Below the pieces are notes generated by a model. That model worked only from the letters and a program-made list of their open reading frames with translations, was not told where the DNA came from and made no database searches. A stretch of 64,000 nt of DNA. Source: a virus. Of this stretch, positions 4,855-50,160 are shown piece by piece. Numbering within the stretch: the first letter of the stretch is position 1; every line of letters starts with the position of its first letter. Both the position numbers and the translations under genes were made by a program. The stretch is from the IMG/VR virus record IMGVR_UViG_3300010354_000044, positions 107,985 through 171,984 of that record, one strand, 5' to 3'.

Positions 4855-4856
4855 TT

Positions 4857-4881
4857 GTCTAAACCCTACCCCAAGGAAAAT
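4857..4881 (+). repeat. Leader repeat, copy 2 with ribosome binding site
   Basis: This is a second copy of TCTAAACCCTACCCC + AAGGAAAAT, directly before ATG 4882. The AAGGAAAA at good spacing supports 4882 rather than the in-frame TTG at 4855 as the start of the repair gene. The repeat lies downstream of paralogue 3 just as copy 1 lies downstream of paralogue 1. Confidence 0.6.
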
Positions 4882-7077
4882 ATGGCTACCATCAACCTGC
4901 TACCTAATTACCTTTACCTCGCGTCAGGGCCCTCGGCGTCGGGTAAGAGCACAGCACTTAAGGGCCTGCCTGCAGGGGTAGTGGTGTCCTCAGACAGCTT
5001 GAGAACCCAAATATTCGGTCTTGAAGCTGATACTGTAGAGGGTAACCTACTAGCCCCTCCTAGCCTAAGACCCCGCCCTGTCAACGATAGCTTTATCTTT
5101 GACACCATGAGACAGATCGTGGAGGCCCGTCTTAAAGCAGGACTGACAACAGTCGTAGACGCAACTTTGTTAACCGACCGTGACCGCAAGCAGTTCGTGG
5201 ATATAGCTGCTAGCTACAACGTCCCTGTTCAGATTTTGATCTGGGATGTTCCCGCCGAGCAGCTGACTACTAGAGATGCAGATCGTCAGTTCCGGGTAGG
5301 GGCTGAGGTTATCCAGCGACAACTGGAGCGCTTTGAGCGTACATCCCAGTACTCCTATATTGTAGACGACTACTTTGAGCTTGAAATAGCTCACCTAACA
5401 GTAGCTAGTAGCGTAGAACTGGATTTCGTGGGTGACATCCACGGCTGCTACGACCAGTTAATAGAACTGATTGAAAAGCTAGGCTATGTTATTGGCGAGG
5501 ACGGTATTGCTAGGTATGCTGGTAATGAGCCCCGGCGTCTGTGCTTTTTGGGCGACTATGTAGACCGAGGGCCCAAGTCCTTAGAGGTACTCAAATTCAT
5601 TTACCGGAATACGCCTACGCATTGGGCGTTGCTGGGGAACCATGATAGTAACCTTCTCAAGGGGTTGCTAGGAAAACCCGTAACCTCCAAGGCCACACAG
5701 GAGACCCTCCATGAAGTGATGGTCGCCAAGGCGGAGAAGTGGGTTACAGAGCTACTGACCTCACTGCCTCGTTATCTAACCTGGCGGAATGTCGTTATTT
5801 GCCATGCCGACATCCAGAGGCTTAACTTACCTCAGGAGACAACTCAGTGCGTTTACGGTTGTAGTAAACTGAACAGGCCTATAAACGCCGATGAAATCTG
5901 GAGTAAGACTGAGAAGCGCCTGCTTATCCGCGGTCACTTTACTCCTGACCACGAGTACGATAACGTCATTACCCTGGACGGTAATCCGGGCTATGGCGGT
6001 ACTATTAAAGCAGGGCGTTTTGCTGTTGCTCAAGTTGCGGGTCGGAAGCATGATAACTTCTTAATCCAGCAATGGATTGAATTCTCATTAGGGCCTACGG
6101 AAGATTATGAAGAACGCAAGAAGACTGTAATAGGTTTTCGCCTTGCCGCTATGCCAAAAGAGTTGGTTAGCACGGCTACATCGCCTTGCGGCCACCTCAA
6201 GCTGTTTAAATACACGCCTAATGCCTTTAGACAGTCCTTTAAATCTGAAGGGCCTTGGCTGGAGTACCCTGACCTTAAGTACGCCCGAGGCCTTGTCGTA
6301 GGCCTTAACCACCAACCGGTGAACACGGTCTTTCCTAAAATTCCTAGTTACACCGAAGGAATTGATCCGAGCAAGCAGGTGATTGCCGCGACAAAGTTGA
6401 ACGGCTTTCTCCTAGCTACATTCAGACATCCTTACAAAGAGGATGTGGTCTTCACTACTACCGGGTCGTTTGACTCTGAGTACGTAAAGATGGGCCGTGC
6501 ATTGTTCTACAAGCACGCAAAACAGTCTCGGCAGCAGCTCCTAAACAGCCCGGGATTGACATTCTTGTGGGAGGTTATAGACCCTAATAAAGACCAAAAT
6601 GTCCACCCTATTGCCTCGTCCGCAGGCATCTACCTAATTGCTGTAGGGCAAAATGGGGTAATCCTCCCCGAGGAGGAGATGCAAAGCTACGCCGGCAACT
6701 TGAATGTCAACTGTGCCAGTCATGTACAGACTGACTTCGGGTCAGTCCTAGAAATGGCCCGCACCAGCGACGGCGAGGGCTATATGATTAGGGACTTGGA
6801 AGGTAACTACCTTGCAAAGCTCAAATCACCGTTTTACCTGACTGTCAAGAAGTTTATGCGTCTATCGCCAAAGGCGGGCGCACAGCTCTTTAACGACCCT
6901 ATTAATTTCAACTTTGAGTATATTTGGCAGCAGTGCATGGACAACCCTTATGCCAACGACCTTTATACCCGGCAGACAGCTATCGCCGAAGCTATCCGAA
7001 CACACTTTTCCTGTGAAACTTGGCAACAAGCAGATAGTTTAACCCGTAGAGAATTTCTCTATCGCATGTTAAGCTAA
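4882..7077 (+). CDS. pnkp-like: Trifunctional RNA repair enzyme: kinase-phosphatase-ligase
   Basis: The 731-residue product has three domains. Residues 10-165 are a P-loop polynucleotide 5'-kinase (GPSASGKST at 16-24). Residues 178-370 are a PPP-type metallophosphatase with GDIHG (about 184), GDYVDRGP (about 225) and GNHD (about 253). Residues 420-731 are a nucleotidyltransferase RNA ligase, with probable motif I K-L-N-G (about 503), FLWEVIDP (about 561), EGYMIR (about 632) and a KLK motif V (about 647). The architecture matches bacterial Pnkp, which heals and seals cleaved tRNA ends, while the ligase motifs look closer to T4 Rnl1. A phage-carried single-chain repair enzyme would counter host anticodon nucleases. 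The start is set by AAGGAAAA before the ATG. Confidence 0.85.
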   Translation: MATINLLPNYLYLASGPSASGKSTALKGLPAGVVVSSDSLRTQIFGLEADTVEGNLLAPPSLRPRPVNDSFIFDTMRQIVEARLKAGLTTVVDATLLTDRDRKQFVDIAASYNVPVQILIWDVPAEQLTTRDADRQFRVGAEVIQRQLERFERTSQYSYIVDDYFELEIAHLTVASSVELDFVGDIHGCYDQLIELIEKLGYVIGEDGIARYAGNEPRRLCFLGDYVDRGPKSLEVLKFIYRNTPTHWALLGNHDSNLLKGLLGKPVTSKATQETLHEVMVAKAEKWVTELLTSLPRYLTWRNVVICHADIQRLNLPQETTQCVYGCSKLNRPINADEIWSKTEKRLLIRGHFTPDHEYDNVITLDGNPGYGGTIKAGRFAVAQVAGRKHDNFLIQQWIEFSLGPTEDYEERKKTVIGFRLAAMPKELVSTATSPCGHLKLFKYTPNAFRQSFKSEGPWLEYPDLKYARGLVVGLNHQPVNTVFPKIPSYTEGIDPSKQVIAATKLNGFLLATFRHPYKEDVVFTTTGSFDSEYVKMGRALFYKHAKQSRQQLLNSPGLTFLWEVIDPNKDQNVHPIASSAGIYLIAVGQNGVILPEEEMQSYAGNLNVNCASHVQTDFGSVLEMARTSDGEGYMIRDLEGNYLAKLKSPFYLTVKKFMRLSPKAGAQLFNDPINFNFEYIWQQCMDNPYANDLYTRQTAIAEAIRTHFSCETWQQADSLTRREFLYRMLS

Positions 7078-8357: not shown

Positions 8358-8804
8358 ATGAAGCTTGACTTAATTCAACGAGGACAATTTAGAGTACAAG
8401 AATGGAAGAAGGGGGTAGATAACGTAGTTTGCTTTGACTACATGGGTAGTTCAGAGTTTGAGGGTGAAGCATTAGGCGCTAGCCTCAAAACTATCAGGGA
8501 TAATATAGAAGCTTACAATCTTACAATCCAACAAGTTTCTGCTTATGGAAAGCAGATTAGTTACTTCCTATTCGCTCCAAAAGCGAATGAAGGAGAAATT
8601 GTTGAGGGTATCAAGCAAATAGCTTTGGATAAAGTGCATTTGAAAGAAGTAGCCTATTTTGATGCAGCCTGTGGGAATATTACTTGGCTTACTCCAAGAA
8701 ACCTACCGAACTTGTGGTGGGATATTAAGAACCATTTTATATGGTGGTTACCCCATGAGCTGCAGGATGAATTTATGGCCGCGCTAAGGAACGGTGGGGC
8801 ATGA
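8358..8804 (+). CDS. Conserved-looking orphan with DYMGSSEFE motif, 148 aa
   Basis: A strong TAGGAGG lies 9 nt before the ATG, so this gene is probably well translated. The motif D-Y-M-G-S-S-E-F-E (about residues 27-35) is one I associate with a family of uncharacterised phage and cyanobacterial proteins; I cannot name it. Downstream there is a W-rich stretch (LWWDIKNHFIWWLP). The stop overlaps the next start (ATGA). The activity is unknown. Confidence 0.6.
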   Translation: MKLDLIQRGQFRVQEWKKGVDNVVCFDYMGSSEFEGEALGASLKTIRDNIEAYNLTIQQVSAYGKQISYFLFAPKANEGEIVEGIKQIALDKVHLKEVAYFDAACGNITWLTPRNLPNLWWDIKNHFIWWLPHELQDEFMAALRNGGA

Positions 8805-9229
8805 ATGCTGGACTACCTAGCAATATGGTAATAGGTTTAATTCTACCTCTGCGGCTAATCAGCCTAGGCTATCCAGCAGGGAATTGGTTTATTGATTTTA
8901 GCCCTCAAGCATGCTTACTAGCTAAGGTAGACTGGCCTGAGTTCTTCCGTCAGACAGGTATTCAGTTAATCCCGGAAACTTTCGGGGAAAGATTCCTCTT
9001 CCGTGATTTGCAGAGAGGTACCTTAGAGCTTAATGAAATCCTGGACGCTTTGGCCACACCAGTACACGGCCTTACTGGGGTTATTGTGCGGCTTGATGTA
9101 GCGAAACTCCCAGACGACAAAGCCTGTTATAAATACCAATGGACTTATTTCTATGGGTATTGCGAGACTTTTGCGGGGCTTGACGGCGTGCTCCAATCGC
9201 TGGTTGAAAAGGCCAGTCAAGGGCAGTAA
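8801..9229 (+). CDS. Orphan protein, 142 aa
   Basis: The start overlaps the stop of the previous gene by 4 nt (ATGA), a sign of translational coupling, so the two products may work together or be needed in fixed ratio. The protein is soluble with hydrophobic patches near the N-terminus (NMVIGLILPLRLISLGY), though not clearly a membrane helix. No motif is recognised and the function is unknown. Confidence 0.55.
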   Translation: MNAGLPSNMVIGLILPLRLISLGYPAGNWFIDFSPQACLLAKVDWPEFFRQTGIQLIPETFGERFLFRDLQRGTLELNEILDALATPVHGLTGVIVRLDVAKLPDDKACYKYQWTYFYGYCETFAGLDGVLQSLVEKASQGQ

Positions 9230-43526: not shown

Positions 43527-44024
43527 ATGAAGTGCGATAGAAACTATATTAATTACTACACTAACTGCTCTAATAGACTAAAGCTATGTAAATACTGCAT
43601 AGTCAATGGCGGCAAGTATAATAACTATGAGCCAATTGACGAAACGCTGACACCTCACCCAGGGGTAGAGGCTTATAATAAAAATAAAGAACGGGGTGCT
43701 CAGGCCAACAAAAAAGGGAAACAAGCTGAAAAGCAAGCTATACAACGTTTAGCTAATAAACTTGTTTCTCCGACTGTGGCCTCGGGCGCCGTAAGGGGCG
43801 ATGGAGATGCTAAGCTTTCAGATCTATGTAACTTAGAACATAAGCTAAGAAACCGCTTAGGAATCACCAAAGCCGAGTATGAAAAAGGGAAGCGGCAGGG
43901 GGTTGGTGTCTGGCAGCTAACAGACCCAGACACCAATACTTCTGTCTATATTCTCTCAGAAGACGTATTTGTAAGACTACTCAAGAGGTACTATGAGTCT
44001 GAAAGCACTGAAGAAGGTCTCTAA
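43527..44024 (+). CDS. PD-(D/E)XK nuclease, possible Holliday-junction resolvase, 165 aa
   Basis: The stretch SGAVRGDGDAKLSDLCNLEHKLR holds a D (GDGDAKLSD) then E-x-K (EHK) in the order of the PD-(D/E)XK fold, preceded by a helix rich in K/A/Q (KKGKQAEKQAIQRLA). Similar small nucleases in phages act as resolvases or single-strand nickases. The N-terminal 25 residues have four cysteines (about residues 3, 14, 20, 23) that may bind zinc. The ATG 43527 lies just after the previous stop. It overlaps the recA-like gene by 32 nt. Confidence 0.6.
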   Translation: MKCDRNYINYYTNCSNRLKLCKYCIVNGGKYNNYEPIDETLTPHPGVEAYNKNKERGAQANKKGKQAEKQAIQRLANKLVSPTVASGAVRGDGDAKLSDLCNLEHKLRNRLGITKAEYEKGKRQGVGVWQLTDPDTNTSVYILSEDVFVRLLKRYYESESTEEGL

Positions 44025-45120
44025 CTTCGTAAGTCTAGACGAGTTAGCAGACACTCAACATGTTTCTACCGGAATTATCGGTTTAGATTATTTACTAGGA
44101 GGTGGATTACCCTTAGGTCGGGCCCTAGAGATTTACGGAGGCACCAACCTAGGTAAGTCAACACTAGCTATTTGGCTCTGTAATGCGATACTAACCGCTA
44201 ATAAAAAAAACATCTGCCGGTACGTAGACGTAGAAAAACGATTAACTGGGGCAGACTTTAAGCGTATTATTCCAGAGGCTAACCGAAGCCGCATTGAGGT
44301 AAGTCAAGGCAATGATTTGAAGTGCGATGTCATCCAACCTATGACACAATTCGTTTACGAATATAACTCACAGGCTGAGGTTGCAACATCTTCTAAAAAA
44401 AGCTCAAAAGAGACTGAAGCGGACAGTCCCCTAGAGTTTGATGATACTACAACCGTAGCCTTCGTCGTAGACAGCTTGCCTTTCCTAAATACTGAAGACC
44501 TACAAGAACGGATATGGTCCGAGAAAGCCTTTGAAGCTAGGGCCCCGGGCTCGCCGCTATCTAGAGCGCTAGCCAATGCAATAGGCGCTTTTACAACATT
44601 CGCTAGTAGCCATGCCAATGGTACTACTATCTTTATTAACCACGTAAGCCAGAAGATTGACCCGTATGTTATAGACATCCCACGCCCATGTGGACTACGC
44701 TATAGGCAGCTAGTAGCTAATTCCCTCCAATTGACCGGCAATAATAGGGAAGATAAAGAGGTGAAAGGCCTCTCTATTACTGCTCTTAAGGCTACTAAGG
44801 CTAGCAGTGCTCCCGCTAACCGTACTGCTGTAATGGCGATAAGCTATAAGCACGGTATAGAGCCAAGGTATTCGCTTTATCACCTCCTAATGGAGGGTGA
44901 GCTAAAGGATAAAGTACTAGACGTAAATGGCCGAACTTATAACTTTCCGGCGGAACTTGAATTACAACCGTTCGTCGGCAAGAAAACGAACTTTTATGCT
45001 TATCTTTTAAACGAAGATGAAGTGTATAATAAGCTATATTATTATGTGCTGGAGAATTTTTGTAAGTCGTCAGCACATAATAATATTATTGAAGAGGATA
45101 TAGAAGAGTATGACGAGTAA
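43993..45120 (+). CDS. RecA/UvsX-like recombinase, 375 aa
   Basis: Walker A G-G-T-N-L-G-K-S-T at residues 49-57 is preceded by TGIIGLDYLLGGGLPLGRALEIYG, the typical RecA/RadA start. A Walker B-like VAFVVDSLPF follows near residue 158, and TIFINHVSQKI near residue 215 corresponds to the L2-region strand. Compared with cellular RecA there is no N-terminal helix domain of full length and the C-terminal domain differs, as in phage UvsX. It would drive strand exchange and recombination-dependent replication. Overlaps the nuclease gene before and the coiled-coil gene after. Confidence 0.8.
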   Translation: MSLKALKKVSNFVSLDELADTQHVSTGIIGLDYLLGGGLPLGRALEIYGGTNLGKSTLAIWLCNAILTANKKNICRYVDVEKRLTGADFKRIIPEANRSRIEVSQGNDLKCDVIQPMTQFVYEYNSQAEVATSSKKSSKETEADSPLEFDDTTTVAFVVDSLPFLNTEDLQERIWSEKAFEARAPGSPLSRALANAIGAFTTFASSHANGTTIFINHVSQKIDPYVIDIPRPCGLRYRQLVANSLQLTGNNREDKEVKGLSITALKATKASSAPANRTAVMAISYKHGIEPRYSLYHLLMEGELKDKVLDVNGRTYNFPAELELQPFVGKKTNFYAYLLNEDEVYNKLYYYVLENFCKSSAHNNIIEEDIEEYDE

Positions 45121-45463
45121 GAACACCGAAGAGTCTGCGCAAGTGAGGCTTAAAGGAGGCGACCTTGATTCAATTGTGACAACTACATCCCCGAGCGTTA
45201 ACGTTTCCAATACGGCTACACAGATTGATTCAGAAGCATTGGTCCTAATTCAAAGTTATCGGGCCAAGCTTGCTGAACTAGAGAAAAGCTTTGCGGAGCT
45301 GCAGCAACATATGGTTGAGTTAAAGGAGCAGTACGCAGTAGTTTACGGGGCCCTAGATGGTACCTATAAGCTATGTGCCGCTCTTTATCGTATAGACAAT
45401 CCGCAAGAAGCTATTAATCCGGCTGACGGAACTATTAAACGGGAGGCTACTGTTGGAAGTTAA
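45110..45463 (+). CDS. Coiled-coil protein, 117 aa
   Basis: The disordered head (residues 1-40, T/S-rich) precedes a coiled coil (about 45-85, LVLIQSYRAKLAELEKSFAELQQHMVELKEQ). It overlaps recA-like by 11 nt and the polymerase gene by 11 nt, so it is translated with both. By position it could be a recombination mediator (UvsY-like), though no sequence signature of that family is visible. Confidence 0.55.
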   Translation: MTSKNTEESAQVRLKGGDLDSIVTTTSPSVNVSNTATQIDSEALVLIQSYRAKLAELEKSFAELQQHMVELKEQYAVVYGALDGTYKLCAALYRIDNPQEAINPADGTIKREATVGS

Positions 45464-46859
45464 AGGTCAAGCCTTTAACTATATTACGGATGGAGCCCAG
45501 TTAGCCGCTGGGCTTCACCGTTTAAAGGCTTCAGGATCAGAATTGGCATTAGATACAGAGACAGGGATTAGACCCGAATGGCGTAATAAGGTTACTGAAT
45601 CTCGCGGCGATCCAATTCAGCCTCGTCTATGTCCCCACTTAGGGCATATTTGCCTGCTAACCTTAACCCCAGTTAATGGCAAACCTGAGGTTTTTGATTT
45701 TGTGTGGTTGCGGCATAACAAAGTAGATTTAAATCCTATCTACGAATTACTAGAGCAAAAGACCTTAATCGCGCACAAAGCGCAGTTTGATGGAAAAATG
45801 CTACTAGGAGAATTCAAAAAGAATACACTTCGTTGGTGGTGTACCCTTCAGGCAGACAAAGTCCTAAGTAACGCCACAGGCAGTAAGTATGGTCTAATCC
45901 GCGGCCATTCTCTTTACTCCTGCTTACGAGATTACCTAGGTATTACCTTAAAGGGTAAGGGAAGTATTCAAACTCAGGATTGGGATCTAGACCTTGAAAA
46001 ACGGACGTTGGATAATCCGTATTGGCTAGAGATGCTTAACTATGCTGCTGCGGACACTAGATACCTACACCAGCTAAAAGCTAAATTAGAAGGGTGGATA
46101 TGTAATCCACTGCCTAGTGACTGGATGAACCGACACGACACCCCAGATGAGGCCTGTGGGTTTGGTATGGCGCGTACCATGCAGCTAGAGAACGACATGA
46201 TTAATATCTACATAGAAATGGAATATTACGGTTTTCCTACTTCTATAGATTTAATTAAAGAGTTTCAGGAAGGGATAGAGATTGAAATGTATGACCTTGC
46301 CTGCGACCTCTGTGATCTCCTAGGTATTGAGTTACCTCCGCCTGATTTAGGTTTGGACTATATAAAACCATACCCCAAAACTCTTAAGGTTTTTAATAAC
46401 CCGACTAAGGTTGTTGAACTCCTTAATGAACATAAGATCGTTACCGATAACGCTCAGAAATTAACCTTAACCCGGGTCTTAAGTTTGATGGATGAAATCT
46501 ATAAACAACAGACTACAGAGGGTAGCGATCAAGGTATTAGTTACCTCAATGACGAAGAAGAGTCCAGATATAAACTTATAGAAGACTATGAGTTATCTGA
46601 CCTTGTACAAGGAAGTAAAATCCTTAATACGTTGCTACAGTATAAAAGGGCTGTAAAACAACATGGCATGAGTATGCTCCGGTTTGTTAATCCAGCTACC
46701 GGCAATATTCATCCGGATGTTAAAGGCCCTGTATCCACTGGGCGCATGGCTATGGGGAGCCCTAACCTGCAGCAAGTATCTAATTCTAGTAAAGTACTTA
46801 TAGAGTTGGATATTGTAGATGGCACTATTCAGCACTACAGTAGTAGTAAGTTAGTTTAA
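45453..46859 (+). CDS. polA-N: DNA polymerase family A, N-terminal half (exonuclease and thumb/palm start), 468 aa
   Basis: GGGAGG lies 6 nt before TTG 45453, which sets this unusual start. The 3'-5' exonuclease has all motifs: D34/E36 in LDTETG, D113 in AHKAQFDG and Y197...D201 in YAAADTRYL. The thumb follows, then the family A palm segment K-G-P-V-S-T-G-R-M-x-x-x-S-P-N-L-Q-Q-V (about residues 420-440), after which the similarity stops and about 25 unrelated residues lead to TAA. Motifs A, B and C are missing here and are encoded by the gene at 47332. So the polymerase is split between the TGR/NLQ motif and motif A. Confidence 0.8.
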   Translation: MEVKGQAFNYITDGAQLAAGLHRLKASGSELALDTETGIRPEWRNKVTESRGDPIQPRLCPHLGHICLLTLTPVNGKPEVFDFVWLRHNKVDLNPIYELLEQKTLIAHKAQFDGKMLLGEFKKNTLRWWCTLQADKVLSNATGSKYGLIRGHSLYSCLRDYLGITLKGKGSIQTQDWDLDLEKRTLDNPYWLEMLNYAAADTRYLHQLKAKLEGWICNPLPSDWMNRHDTPDEACGFGMARTMQLENDMINIYIEMEYYGFPTSIDLIKEFQEGIEIEMYDLACDLCDLLGIELPPPDLGLDYIKPYPKTLKVFNNPTKVVELLNEHKIVTDNAQKLTLTRVLSLMDEIYKQQTTEGSDQGISYLNDEEESRYKLIEDYELSDLVQGSKILNTLLQYKRAVKQHGMSMLRFVNPATGNIHPDVKGPVSTGRMAMGSPNLQQVSNSSKVLIELDIVDGTIQHYSSSKLV

Positions 46860-47332
46860 TGCTTGTCATCAAATTGACTACCAGTGAATTAGTAATATTA
46901 TCTTTATTTAAAGTTGATGCTAACCGTTCTGTTTACAACCCGGATTTAAACCTATCTGGTAAAGCTTATGGTTTAGCCGTCAGATCATTGAAGCGGCGGG
47001 GGTTTCTAGTAAGTACTAAAACCCCCTTAAAACTAACTAAAAGAGGAAAATTATTTGCAAAGATGAGTACCCACCCCCCTACGTCAGAACCCTACGCAAT
47101 TACAATTAACCAATTCCTTTCTATTACTCCAGGTACTGCCATTAGTACTGAAGATGGACGCATTTATATAAACTCTGCCGATGGCGGCAGTTATGAGATA
47201 GTACTAGCCTTACAGGACCTTACTGATCCTGAGGCCGAAGTTAAGCCTATCAGTGAACTGAGGATTGAAAATGGCGATTTGTTAGAAGAAGGAGACCTAG
47301 CTAATGTAAGCTGTAACGAAGGTATGTTCTAA
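46859..47332 (+). CDS. Orphan between polymerase halves, winged-helix head, 157 aa
   Basis: Residues 1-70 (LTTSELVILSLFKVD, YGLAVRSLKRRGFLVSTKTPLKLTKRG) read as a winged helix: three helices then a K-x-T hairpin. The C-terminal 80 residues are beta-rich and acidic. It shares 1 nt with each neighbouring gene (TAATG and TAATG), so all three are coupled. No homing-endonuclease motif (LAGLIDADG, GIY-YIG, HNH) is seen. It may be an inserted gene, or a bridge subunit that holds the two polymerase halves together. Confidence 0.55.
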   Translation: MLVIKLTTSELVILSLFKVDANRSVYNPDLNLSGKAYGLAVRSLKRRGFLVSTKTPLKLTKRGKLFAKMSTHPPTSEPYAITINQFLSITPGTAISTEDGRIYINSADGGSYEIVLALQDLTDPEAEVKPISELRIENGDLLEEGDLANVSCNEGMF

Positions 47333-48285
47333 TGGAGCTATTCTTTGAGTGCGCCCCTAAGAATATATTCCTAGCACCCCCAGGCTACTTCTGGTCCGGA
47401 TTAGATTACAGCGGGCAAGAGCTCATGATCAGCGCTGTTGTGTCAGGCGATACAACGATGCTGGAAGCCTTTAGACAGCCAGAGCTAAAACCGCACCCAG
47501 AGACCGGAGAGCTCTGCCCAAACCCCTACGCGGACTTACATACAATTACAACCAGAAGCGCAGTCTTTCCTAAAATATTCGAAGGCCATGAGTGGTATGA
47601 CTGGGTGAAGATAGCTAAAACTTACAAAGTGCCTAACTTTACAGAGGCGCCCCGTCAGTACGGGAAAAAGACGAATTTCTCGGCTATCTATTTATGTAAC
47701 GCACCTACGCTAGCCATTAACTTAGGCATTCCTGAGCAGCTAGCAGGAAACATTCTACAAGGCCATCGTAAAACCTATGCCGGATACTACCACTGGGCAG
47801 AGCAACAAGGGGCTATTGGGGAGGCCTGTGGGTGGATTAGCACTCCTTGGCTAAAGCGTGTCCGGGGAGTCCATGAAGCTAATGCTAAAGGAGGAGGGTC
47901 AGCAAAGCTGCTAGCTCCTAATGTTTGCATTCAGGGGACAGGGGCCGATATTGCGAAGGCGGCTATGTGTAGAATATTCCGCTGGAAAGAGAAGCTCAAT
48001 AAGCCTATAGAGTTTGCAAAACGCCCTCGTTTAATCGGACAGGTTCATGACGAGTTAGTACCACTTATTCCTGGAAAGTGCACGTTAAACCTGGATAAAT
48101 CTAAGCTAGAGGAACGTGATAACATGACAGTTGTTACAAAGGCTTGTTGGGATGTACCCGAGGCATCCTATGAATTAGCCTTACAAATCCGTCAGATAAT
48201 GATTGATGTCGAAACGGAGGCCTTTGATGGTGTATTGGAAGGTCGGGTAGATATGCCAAACCCAGCCCCCTGGTGGTCAAAATAA
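47332..48285 (+). CDS. polA-C: DNA polymerase family A, C-terminal half (palm/fingers), 317 aa
   Basis: Motif A is W-S-G-L-D-Y-S-G-Q-E-L (D25), motif B R-Q-Y-G-K-K-T-N-F-S-A-I-Y (108-120) and motif C Q-V-H-D-E-L-V (H239, D240, E241), so both metal-binding aspartates are present. FSAIY replaces the usual NFGVLYG. The product starts FFECAPKNIFLAPPGYF, which equals the stretch right before motif A in intact enzymes. With the upstream half it makes a complete polymerase, so assembly of two chains (or trans-splicing) is needed. ATG 47332 has GAAGG 9 nt upstream. Confidence 0.85.
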   Translation: MELFFECAPKNIFLAPPGYFWSGLDYSGQELMISAVVSGDTTMLEAFRQPELKPHPETGELCPNPYADLHTITTRSAVFPKIFEGHEWYDWVKIAKTYKVPNFTEAPRQYGKKTNFSAIYLCNAPTLAINLGIPEQLAGNILQGHRKTYAGYYHWAEQQGAIGEACGWISTPWLKRVRGVHEANAKGGGSAKLLAPNVCIQGTGADIAKAAMCRIFRWKEKLNKPIEFAKRPRLIGQVHDELVPLIPGKCTLNLDKSKLEERDNMTVVTKACWDVPEASYELALQIRQIMIDVETEAFDGVLEGRVDMPNPAPWWSK

Positions 48286-48304
48286 GTTAGGTAAAGGTAA
48301 TACT

Positions 48305-48850
48305 ATGAGTCCGTTTAGTTTTATAAAATGGCTTAGATTCCAAAGTTTGTATGGCATCCTAAATAGTGCTGACATACAACAACAGCTAAACATGTACTCA
48401 TTAGACAATAATATAAGCTACGTCCCTGAGCTTAACTACAGCGAAGAGACCTATGAAATTAACGTCTACGCCACTGATGTTAAACTGATTTATATCAGAA
48501 ACAAGAATAATAAGCTTTACATAGAATTCCTTATTCCAGTAACGGTTAATTATCCATCACTGCTAGGAAAGAATTTCTGCGCCATTTACTTAGGTGAGAC
48601 TCTCTCAGACTCATCCAATTTAGGTTGTGTCACCATGCGGTCTGGTATTGATTCCTCACCGGTATATTACCTCGCTCTGAATTTACCTTGGGCAATTAAT
48701 AAGCACCAGTTTGGTCGTTTGTTAGATAGGGTATTTAATGAGTTTAGGCAGTTTAGTAAAAGTAGTGAGCTTATAGGAGAGCAACTTGCAGATACTGCGG
48801 CCCTACTACAAGAATCAATGGACCCAGATATAGAAGAAGCTGAGGACTAA
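48305..48850 (+). CDS. Orphan protein, 181 aa
   Basis: A soluble protein (FSFIKWLRFQSLYGILNSADIQQQLNMY...), beta-rich in the middle (INVYATDVKLIYIRNKNNKLYIEFLIPVTV), ending in an acidic tail (MDPDIEEAED). AGGTAAAGG precedes the ATG. It stands between polymerase and clamp candidate, so a replisome accessory role is likely, but no family is recognised. Confidence 0.55.
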   Translation: MSPFSFIKWLRFQSLYGILNSADIQQQLNMYSLDNNISYVPELNYSEETYEINVYATDVKLIYIRNKNNKLYIEFLIPVTVNYPSLLGKNFCAIYLGETLSDSSNLGCVTMRSGIDSSPVYYLALNLPWAINKHQFGRLLDRVFNEFRQFSKSSELIGEQLADTAALLQESMDPDIEEAED

Positions 48851-48855
48851 AATTT

Positions 48856-50160
48856 ATGTTATCTATGCAAATTGATGCACTTATCAGTGCAATAAATCAT
48901 GTTGCCTATTTTCCAACTGTTAACCCAGGACATGTCCGCCGGTACTGTAAGTTTTCGGTATCCAACGGGGGGCGAGTAACGTTGTCTGTGTATGGCGCGG
49001 GCGATGTTTGGATTCACCATTATATTAATAACACTCAGTCTATAGACGGTCTGGAAATCATATTAGGGGACTTGGACGCAGTAAAAAAGCTCAAGGCTAC
49101 CTATTGCAGTATTAGGCAAACCTCAACCGGGGCTGAATTAATATCTTTTAATGAATTTAACCTTCGCAATAACCCCAAAGTATTGGATAAAATTACCCTA
49201 GGGGTCTACCCAGGGACCTTAGATGCGTTCCCGGAATATAAGTCGGTAACCAACTTAATAACAACCGTTAGGAGCTCTACATTCCGGCGCATTATCAATA
49301 CGGTAGACGAGACTAGTGAGCATAAAGACAAGAATAACTTAAGAGTTGTAAAACTTACTACGAGTCCTTTTGGTATTTATTCAAATGCTAGAATGGCCGA
49401 TTATCTTAGGTTTTATGTCTATGACACACAAGCCACCGAAGAGGAGGACTCAGAACCTACAGAGGCTAACTATTACATCCTAGGTAAGTATCTACATATT
49501 ATCAGTAAGGTCACCGAGTCCTCAGAAGAGGATGGGGTTGAGATTCACTACGCAGCGGATAACAGCGGTGACAGACTAATATTCAAAGGACCTTTAGGCG
49601 AAGTTTCTGTACCGTTAGAAGTAGGCTATGCCGCTGATTTGGCCGAACGTACTTTTAGTAAAGTTCATTTATTTGAACAACAGCCAGTTTCTATTCTTAC
49701 CAGAAAAACTATTAGCATAAGTAGGCTTAGTGATGCCCTGCAGCTGCTAAATCCCACAAGCGCTGCTCATTCCTCTATGTACTTAGAGGCCAATGAAAAC
49801 GATATTAATTCTTTAGTGCTCTATTTTGCCGGCGATATCTACCAGAATAATATAAGTACGCTACCCTTAAACCTTGACTATTGTGACTTAACAACATCAT
49901 GGCCAGCTACTGCAATAGACTACGAAGCTTTAACTATATTGGCCAAATTAGCGGCTCGTCTAGATAGCGATAAGAAAGGTGACCGGTTATCCTTAATCCT
50001 AGGCTTATATAAACATACTAGAGCCAGAAGTCGGCGGACCACTAGAGAGCATGATTTCGTGTTAAAAGCGGAGCTGCCTGACAAGATTGGTTATGACATA
50101 ATACTACCCGTTAAATGTAACTATGCCGAAGAAGTACAAACAGCCGCACCTGTACAATGA
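48856..50160 (+). CDS. Candidate DNA sliding clamp (DnaN-like), 434 aa
   Basis: The N-terminal M-Q-I-D-A-L-I-S-A-I-N-H-V-A-Y-F...KFSVSNGGRVTLSVYG resembles the first beta-clamp domain (helix, then K-x-x-V-x-D-G-x-L-x-L-x-A). The end, EALTILAKLAARLDSDKKGDRLSLILG...GYDIILPVKCN, matches the last clamp domain (A-L-K-A-L...V-x-L...V-M-P-V-R-L). The length, about 60 residues more than bacterial clamps, and its position between polymerase and clamp loader support this. I have no profile evidence, so it remains a candidate. ATG 48865 is an alternative start. Confidence 0.5.
   Translation: MLSMQIDALISAINHVAYFPTVNPGHVRRYCKFSVSNGGRVTLSVYGAGDVWIHHYINNTQSIDGLEIILGDLDAVKKLKATYCSIRQTSTGAELISFNEFNLRNNPKVLDKITLGVYPGTLDAFPEYKSVTNLITTVRSSTFRRIINTVDETSEHKDKNNLRVVKLTTSPFGIYSNARMADYLRFYVYDTQATEEEDSEPTEANYYILGKYLHIISKVTESSEEDGVEIHYAADNSGDRLIFKGPLGEVSVPLEVGYAADLAERTFSKVHLFEQQPVSILTRKTISISRLSDALQLLNPTSAAHSSMYLEANENDINSLVLYFAGDIYQNNISTLPLNLDYCDLTTSWPATAIDYEALTILAKLAARLDSDKKGDRLSLILGLYKHTRARSRRTTREHDFVLKAELPDKIGYDIILPVKCNYAEEVQTAAPVQ

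Follow-up and report, generated by a model that had tools for sequence, protein, structure and literature searches.

Analysis of the window, the 64 kb with which a 172-kb virus record ends, revealed that its proofreading family A DNA polymerase is encoded in two genes, with a gene for a winged-helix protein lying between them. Three open reading frames (ORFs) follow one another on the plus strand at positions 45453-46859, 46859-47332 and 47332-48285, coding for proteins of 468, 157 and 317 aa, respectively. The first ORF begins with a TTG start codon, and the sequence TAATG provides a 1-nt stop/start overlap at both 46859 and 47332, in agreement with the original prediction that the middle gene overlaps both of its neighbors by a single nucleotide. 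The best explanation for this arrangement, which we regard as highly probable, is that the polymerase is permanently encoded as two chains that would assemble in trans.

The two polymerase genes and their genomic context

The ORF at 45453-46859 (N-half) matched the exonuclease family DNA_pol_A_exo1 (PF01612, 8e-15) in Pfam and also positions 62-134 of the DNA_pol_A profile; it comprises the 3'-5' exonuclease, the thumb, and the palm as far as TGR...PNLQQV plus one further palm strand. The ORF at 47332-48285 (C-half) matched DNA_pol_A (1.3e-27) and contains palm motif A, the fingers with motif B, and palm motif C (VHDE). Comparison with PHROGs placed positions 656-990 of phrog_17 (DNA polymerase) in the first ORF and positions 997-1193 in the third, indicating that both ORFs tile one polymerase from which nothing is missing. 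Alignments revealed that the ExoI DxE, ExoII, and ExoIII YxxxD motifs are all kept in the N-half (D34/E36, D113, and Y197/D201), and that the C-half retains the polymerase residues D25, R108/K112, and H239-D240-E241. TGR-NLQ, motif A (DYSxxE), motif B (R...K...Y), and motif C (HDE) are thus all present across the two ORFs, and the anticipated full set of exonuclease and polymerase motifs in the outer genes was borne out. When modeled alone with AF2, the C-half adopted a confident fold (mean pLDDT of 80) that matched the palm and fingers of Taq, Bst, and Klenow pol I with Foldseek E-values down to 5e-11.

The position of the break was determined from profile alignments to PDB structures. Matches of the N-half to Taq and Klenow stop near Taq residue 594, and the break falls at approximately Taq 594/595, 15 residues ahead of the first catalytic Asp, which corresponds to Asp610 of Taq in the numbering used with the alignments. 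Pfam, PHROGs, and these alignments therefore confirm a family A polymerase divided between TGR-NLQ and motif A, in the palm just before the first catalytic Asp, as had been proposed. Alignment with the unsplit polymerases described below showed that the 3' end of the N-half (46804-46859, plus strand) encodes KVLIEL, a strand of the palm that is conserved, and then a tail that varies. The position of the break coincides with the tip of the hairpin predicted ahead of motif A.

The polymerase locus is located in a replication block that includes a RecA-like gene, UDG, helicases, and a clamp loader. The gene upstream (43993-45120, plus strand) encodes a UvsX/RecA-like recombinase (PF00154, 2.9e-11; phrog_97), and a RecA-like ORF also precedes the N-half in most relatives. 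Downstream, a conserved gene for a 434-aa protein (48856-50160, plus strand) has a homolog after the C-half in the IMG/VR contig L036 (30% identity), and homologs in L039, L042, and L043 match more weakly; the 434-aa protein gave no Pfam match above the cut-off, and its position and size make a diverged sliding clamp possible. The 181-aa ORF at 48305-48850 has the position and a similar size of gp177 of Microcystis phage Ma-LMM01, with no significant BLASTP match. The 740-aa ORF at 4855-7077 of the window combines regions resembling polynucleotide kinase/phosphatase and RNA ligase, and might encode an enzyme that repairs RNA as a single chain.

The remainder of the 172-kb record yielded no polymerase of family B or C. 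In Ma-LMM01, whose polymerase is broken at the same site, gp178 and gp180 both show middle-gene expression in the course of infection (PMC5780444). The lack of a family B or C enzyme, the replication-block setting, and this expression pattern make a working two-chain polymerase the best explanation for the locus.

Conservation and origin of the break

Among named phages, those of the Ma-LMM01 group, which infect Microcystis, are the closest relatives, and the viruses with a split polymerase are probably cyanobacterial viruses. The same site is broken in Ma-LMM01/Fukuivirus and in 13 IMG/VR contigs identified through profile searches (L006/L040, L013/L038, L021, L035, L036, L037, L039, L041-L045, and L062). 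In Ma-LMM01 the order is identical: gp180 ("3'-5' exonuclease"), gp179 (51 aa), and gp178 ("DNA polymerase"). All 15 aligned split N-halves end at the same point, after the palm strand that follows QQ(V/I)S, which indicates that the split is not due to chance. The recurrence of this arrangement in about 12 related viruses argues that the enzyme very likely works by non-covalent joining of its parts. Single-protein scans of viral contigs for close relatives and a scan of genome contigs for hosts gave no match.

A search for relatives with an unsplit gene, suggested in the original prediction, succeeded: the polymerase is encoded by a single gene in Microcoleus phage My-WqHQDG and in IMG/VR contigs L022, L023, and L032-L034 (the N-half tail was compared with WqHQDG, L022, and L023). 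In the search made with the C-half, about 45 other phage family A loci were found to hold the junction inside one ORF, that is, in a single contiguous polypeptide, in contrast with the two ORFs of the window.

Phylogenetic analysis placed the 11 sequences with a winged-helix gene in one clade (100/100), whereas Ma-LMM01, L035, and L021 formed a second clade (98/97) joined to the unsplit WqHQDG/L023 (99/96). A single origin of the split was rejected on the combined alignment (AU test, p=0.007) and weakly on the N-half only (p=0.035), but not on the C-half only (p=0.166). Two separate splits at one site, or a single split with a re-fusion in the WqHQDG lineage, would account for these trees. The N- and C-halves gave congruent trees and distance matrices (r=0.94), a correlation that shared descent alone would also produce.

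The window carries no endonuclease gene at its own break; a LAGLIDADG gene occupies that break, between the halves, in L021. Mobile elements are also found nearby in the polymerase genes of relatives. In L041 and L045, inteins occupy the TGR site of the N-half, a few residues upstream of the break; TGR-site inteins of 332 aa (L041:6968-9376) and 128 aa (L055:4676-6424) were delimited, and the C-half of L041 has an apparent further intein at motif B. Group I introns scoring below the Rfam gathering threshold were detected at motifs B and C in the C-half of L013 (5249-5999 and 6959-7152) and at motif A in L015, a close relative of Fukuivirus (5759-6000). The LAGLIDADG gene and the nearby introns and inteins suggest, by comparison with nrdA of Aeh1 and gene 43 of phage 25 (PMC2988022), that invasion of a conserved site by a homing element was probably the origin of the break.

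Two chains or one

In the arrangement that we favor, one chain would carry the exonuclease, the thumb, and the start of the palm, and the other would carry motif A, the fingers, and motif C. Each would be translated on its own, with termination-reinitiation at the TAATG overlaps as the probable mechanism, and the two would assemble non-covalently by re-forming the palm hairpin cut at its tip. In the clade of the window, the winged-helix gene fills the gap and would be translated between the halves.

It is unlikely that the halves do not associate, the N-half acting as a stand-alone exonuclease and the C-half as a stand-alone polymerase. This is how gp180 and gp178 of Ma-LMM01 are annotated in GenBank, and both have been treated as separate enzymes in the literature (PMC5780444, PMC9927357). 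Against it, the break lies inside the palm, so that neither half has a complete polymerase fold: TGR...NLQ are in the N-half, and the C-half is devoid of them. Furthermore, the TGR...NLQ palm residues are kept in N-halves over a large divergence, and a plain exonuclease would not need them.

The original prediction offered as alternatives two assembling chains or a joining of the halves by RNA or protein splicing. The first of these is well supported, whereas the second is strongly disfavored by the distances and inserts between the halves in relatives and by the lack of an intron match, and we consider splicing of the halves very unlikely. The half genes are independent of one another. In L035 there is no insert between them but an overlap of 4 nt, which leaves no space for an intron; in L045 the end of the N-half and the start of the C-half are 45.5 kb apart, on one metagenomic contig that is possibly misassembled. 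The halves are separated by a D12 Dam-type methylase gene and other ORFs in L006, and by an SNase gene and two IS605-type TnpA/TnpB-like ORFs in L062 (the transposase reading was made by sequence inspection).

These observations bear directly on the idea that a self-splicing intron of group I or II contains the middle gene as its ORF, with the exons joined in the mRNA to give a single polymerase. The variation of the N-half tail past the conserved strand is what intronic read-through would produce, and relatives have group I introns elsewhere in their polymerase genes. Nevertheless, an Rfam covariance search of positions 45400-48400, with a cut-off as loose as E<=1, detected no intron at the junction, although a comparable search did detect the diverged group I introns of L013 and L015, and a winged helix would be an unusual intron ORF. 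Together with the L035 overlap, the L045 distance, and the IS605-type and Dam genes of L062 and L006, these data make an intron highly improbable.

Post-translational joining of the halves by a split intein is also extremely improbable. Split inteins are known in phage polymerase genes (PMC11923092), and the real inteins of L041 and L045 lie just upstream of the break. However, the extra residues at the junction amount to about 17 in the N-half and about 10 in the C-half, far below the size of an intein, and the tails of L035 and Ma-LMM01 are just as short. The tails, judged by reading, do not show the catalytic Cys/Ser...His-Asn pattern, and in the alignment the N-half tail begins with a normal palm strand. 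Programmed frameshifting was discarded by inspection, as overlap lengths vary among relatives and no slippery site was seen.

Finally, breakage of a gene may simply point to its decay, but the possibility that this polymerase is decaying and the phage relies on that of its host is negligible, given that all motifs are intact within two long open frames, that conservation is strong and purifying selection acts in relatives, and that the break is old and shared.

The winged-helix gene between the halves

The product of the middle gene (46859-47332, plus strand; 157 aa) consists of a winged-helix domain (residues ~1-70) and an acidic, poorly predicted tail (residues 71-157). AF2 modeled residues 1-70 confidently as a winged helix (pLDDT 80-94), and the best clear Foldseek matches were MarR-type winged helices, including 5hsm (probability 1.00, 2.0 Å over 68 columns, with a weak E-value of 0.15). 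The winged-helix-like head foreseen for this protein was thus recovered, and Pfam and Foldseek gave no match to any endonuclease family, in line with the claim that the gene is not a homing endonuclease. The window protein has no Pfam match, the best among its homologs being PF24409 (0.0039), and a tblastn search against phages gave no match.

Ten other contigs have homologs of the middle gene at this locus; in L036-L045 the homolog is located after the N-half or before the C-half, and L062 contains a divergent candidate with a weak match (E 0.012). In the L045 contig, the winged-helix gene adjoins the C-half with a 4-nt overlap, far from the N-half. When 12 whole records were searched with the winged-helix profile, those of the split clade matched at the polymerase locus (L062 weakly), and LMM01, WqHQDG, L021, L022, L023, and L035 gave no match anywhere. 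In L036, a distinct 74-aa ORF (8610-8834) separates the winged-helix gene from the C-half and has the position of the acidic tail of the window protein; both are alike by eye, but homology between them was not retained, as BLASTP gave no match. A promoter scan near the middle gene revealed no excess over shuffled sequences, and a slight excess was observed for terminators.

Outside the overlaps, comparison of the winged-helix genes of L037 and L038 gave a pN of 0.125 vs a pS of 0.82, indicating that the middle gene encodes a protein under purifying selection. Distances of the middle gene correlated with those of the N-half (r 0.79) and the C-half (r 0.86), values that shared descent alone could explain. 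The description of the middle gene as unrelated to its neighbors holds in that it is neither a polymerase fragment nor an endonuclease; as an unrelated passenger it fails, because the gene is conserved, selected, and stays by the C-half.

Purifying selection, and the persistence of this gene next to the C-half where the two halves lie apart, suggest that the winged-helix protein may be an accessory subunit of the polymerase, a role that its position and conservation point to; serving the enzyme in this way or as a DNA-binding subunit would be its most likely function. Alternatively, it could be a regulator that just happens to sit at this locus. A further, more doubtful possibility is that of a family A replicative polymerase of three subunits, in which the winged-helix protein would be an obligate assembly or DNA-binding subunit bridging the N and C chains. 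If true, such a three-subunit phage polymerase holoenzyme would have a composition not previously described.

Relation to known split enzymes

The system most similar to that of the window is gp180-gp179-gp178 of Ma-LMM01/Fukuivirus, a family A polymerase whose break has the same position in the alignment and whose halves have a small gene between them. In contrast with our interpretation, its halves are annotated in the records and in publications (PMC5780444, PMC9927357) as separate enzymes and not as a split polymerase. In addition, the 51-aa gp179 has no detectable homology to the winged-helix family of the window, with no profile match as a winged helix for the Fukuivirus protein, and the tree suggests that the Ma-LMM01 split is possibly independent of that in the window clade.

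Replicative polymerases encoded in two genes at one locus are also found in Aeromonas phages 25 and 44RR (gp43A/gp43B), and 43A and 43B of phage 25 are reported to co-purify and to have polymerase activity (PMC2988022). These are family B enzymes, with a seg endonuclease gene or untranslated sequence as the spacer, as opposed to the conserved winged-helix gene described here. In nrdA of Aeh1, a homing endonuclease (mobE) similarly divides an essential enzyme of the phage within a region critical to its function, and the enzyme is functional as two chains (PMC2988022); it is a ribonucleotide reductase, however, and the endonuclease is still present, whereas the spacer of the window is not an endonuclease. 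Cyanophage Mic1 also has a family A polymerase in two ORFs (DNA polymerase gamma, ORF86/ORF85), but there the break lies within motif A and has been described as a 298-bp intron (PMC7156551), unlike the one in the window.

No earlier description of this family A split was found in the open-licence literature searched. While split replicative polymerases were already known for family B in T4-like phages, the novelty here is an old, conserved split of a family A polymerase inside the palm, unrecognised in the reference phage Ma-LMM01. This enzyme provides a natural two-piece Pol I for the study of palm domain reassembly, and the winged-helix protein is a possible new accessory subunit. The finding is also a warning that the pairs of "exonuclease" and "polymerase" genes annotated in phages may be one enzyme.
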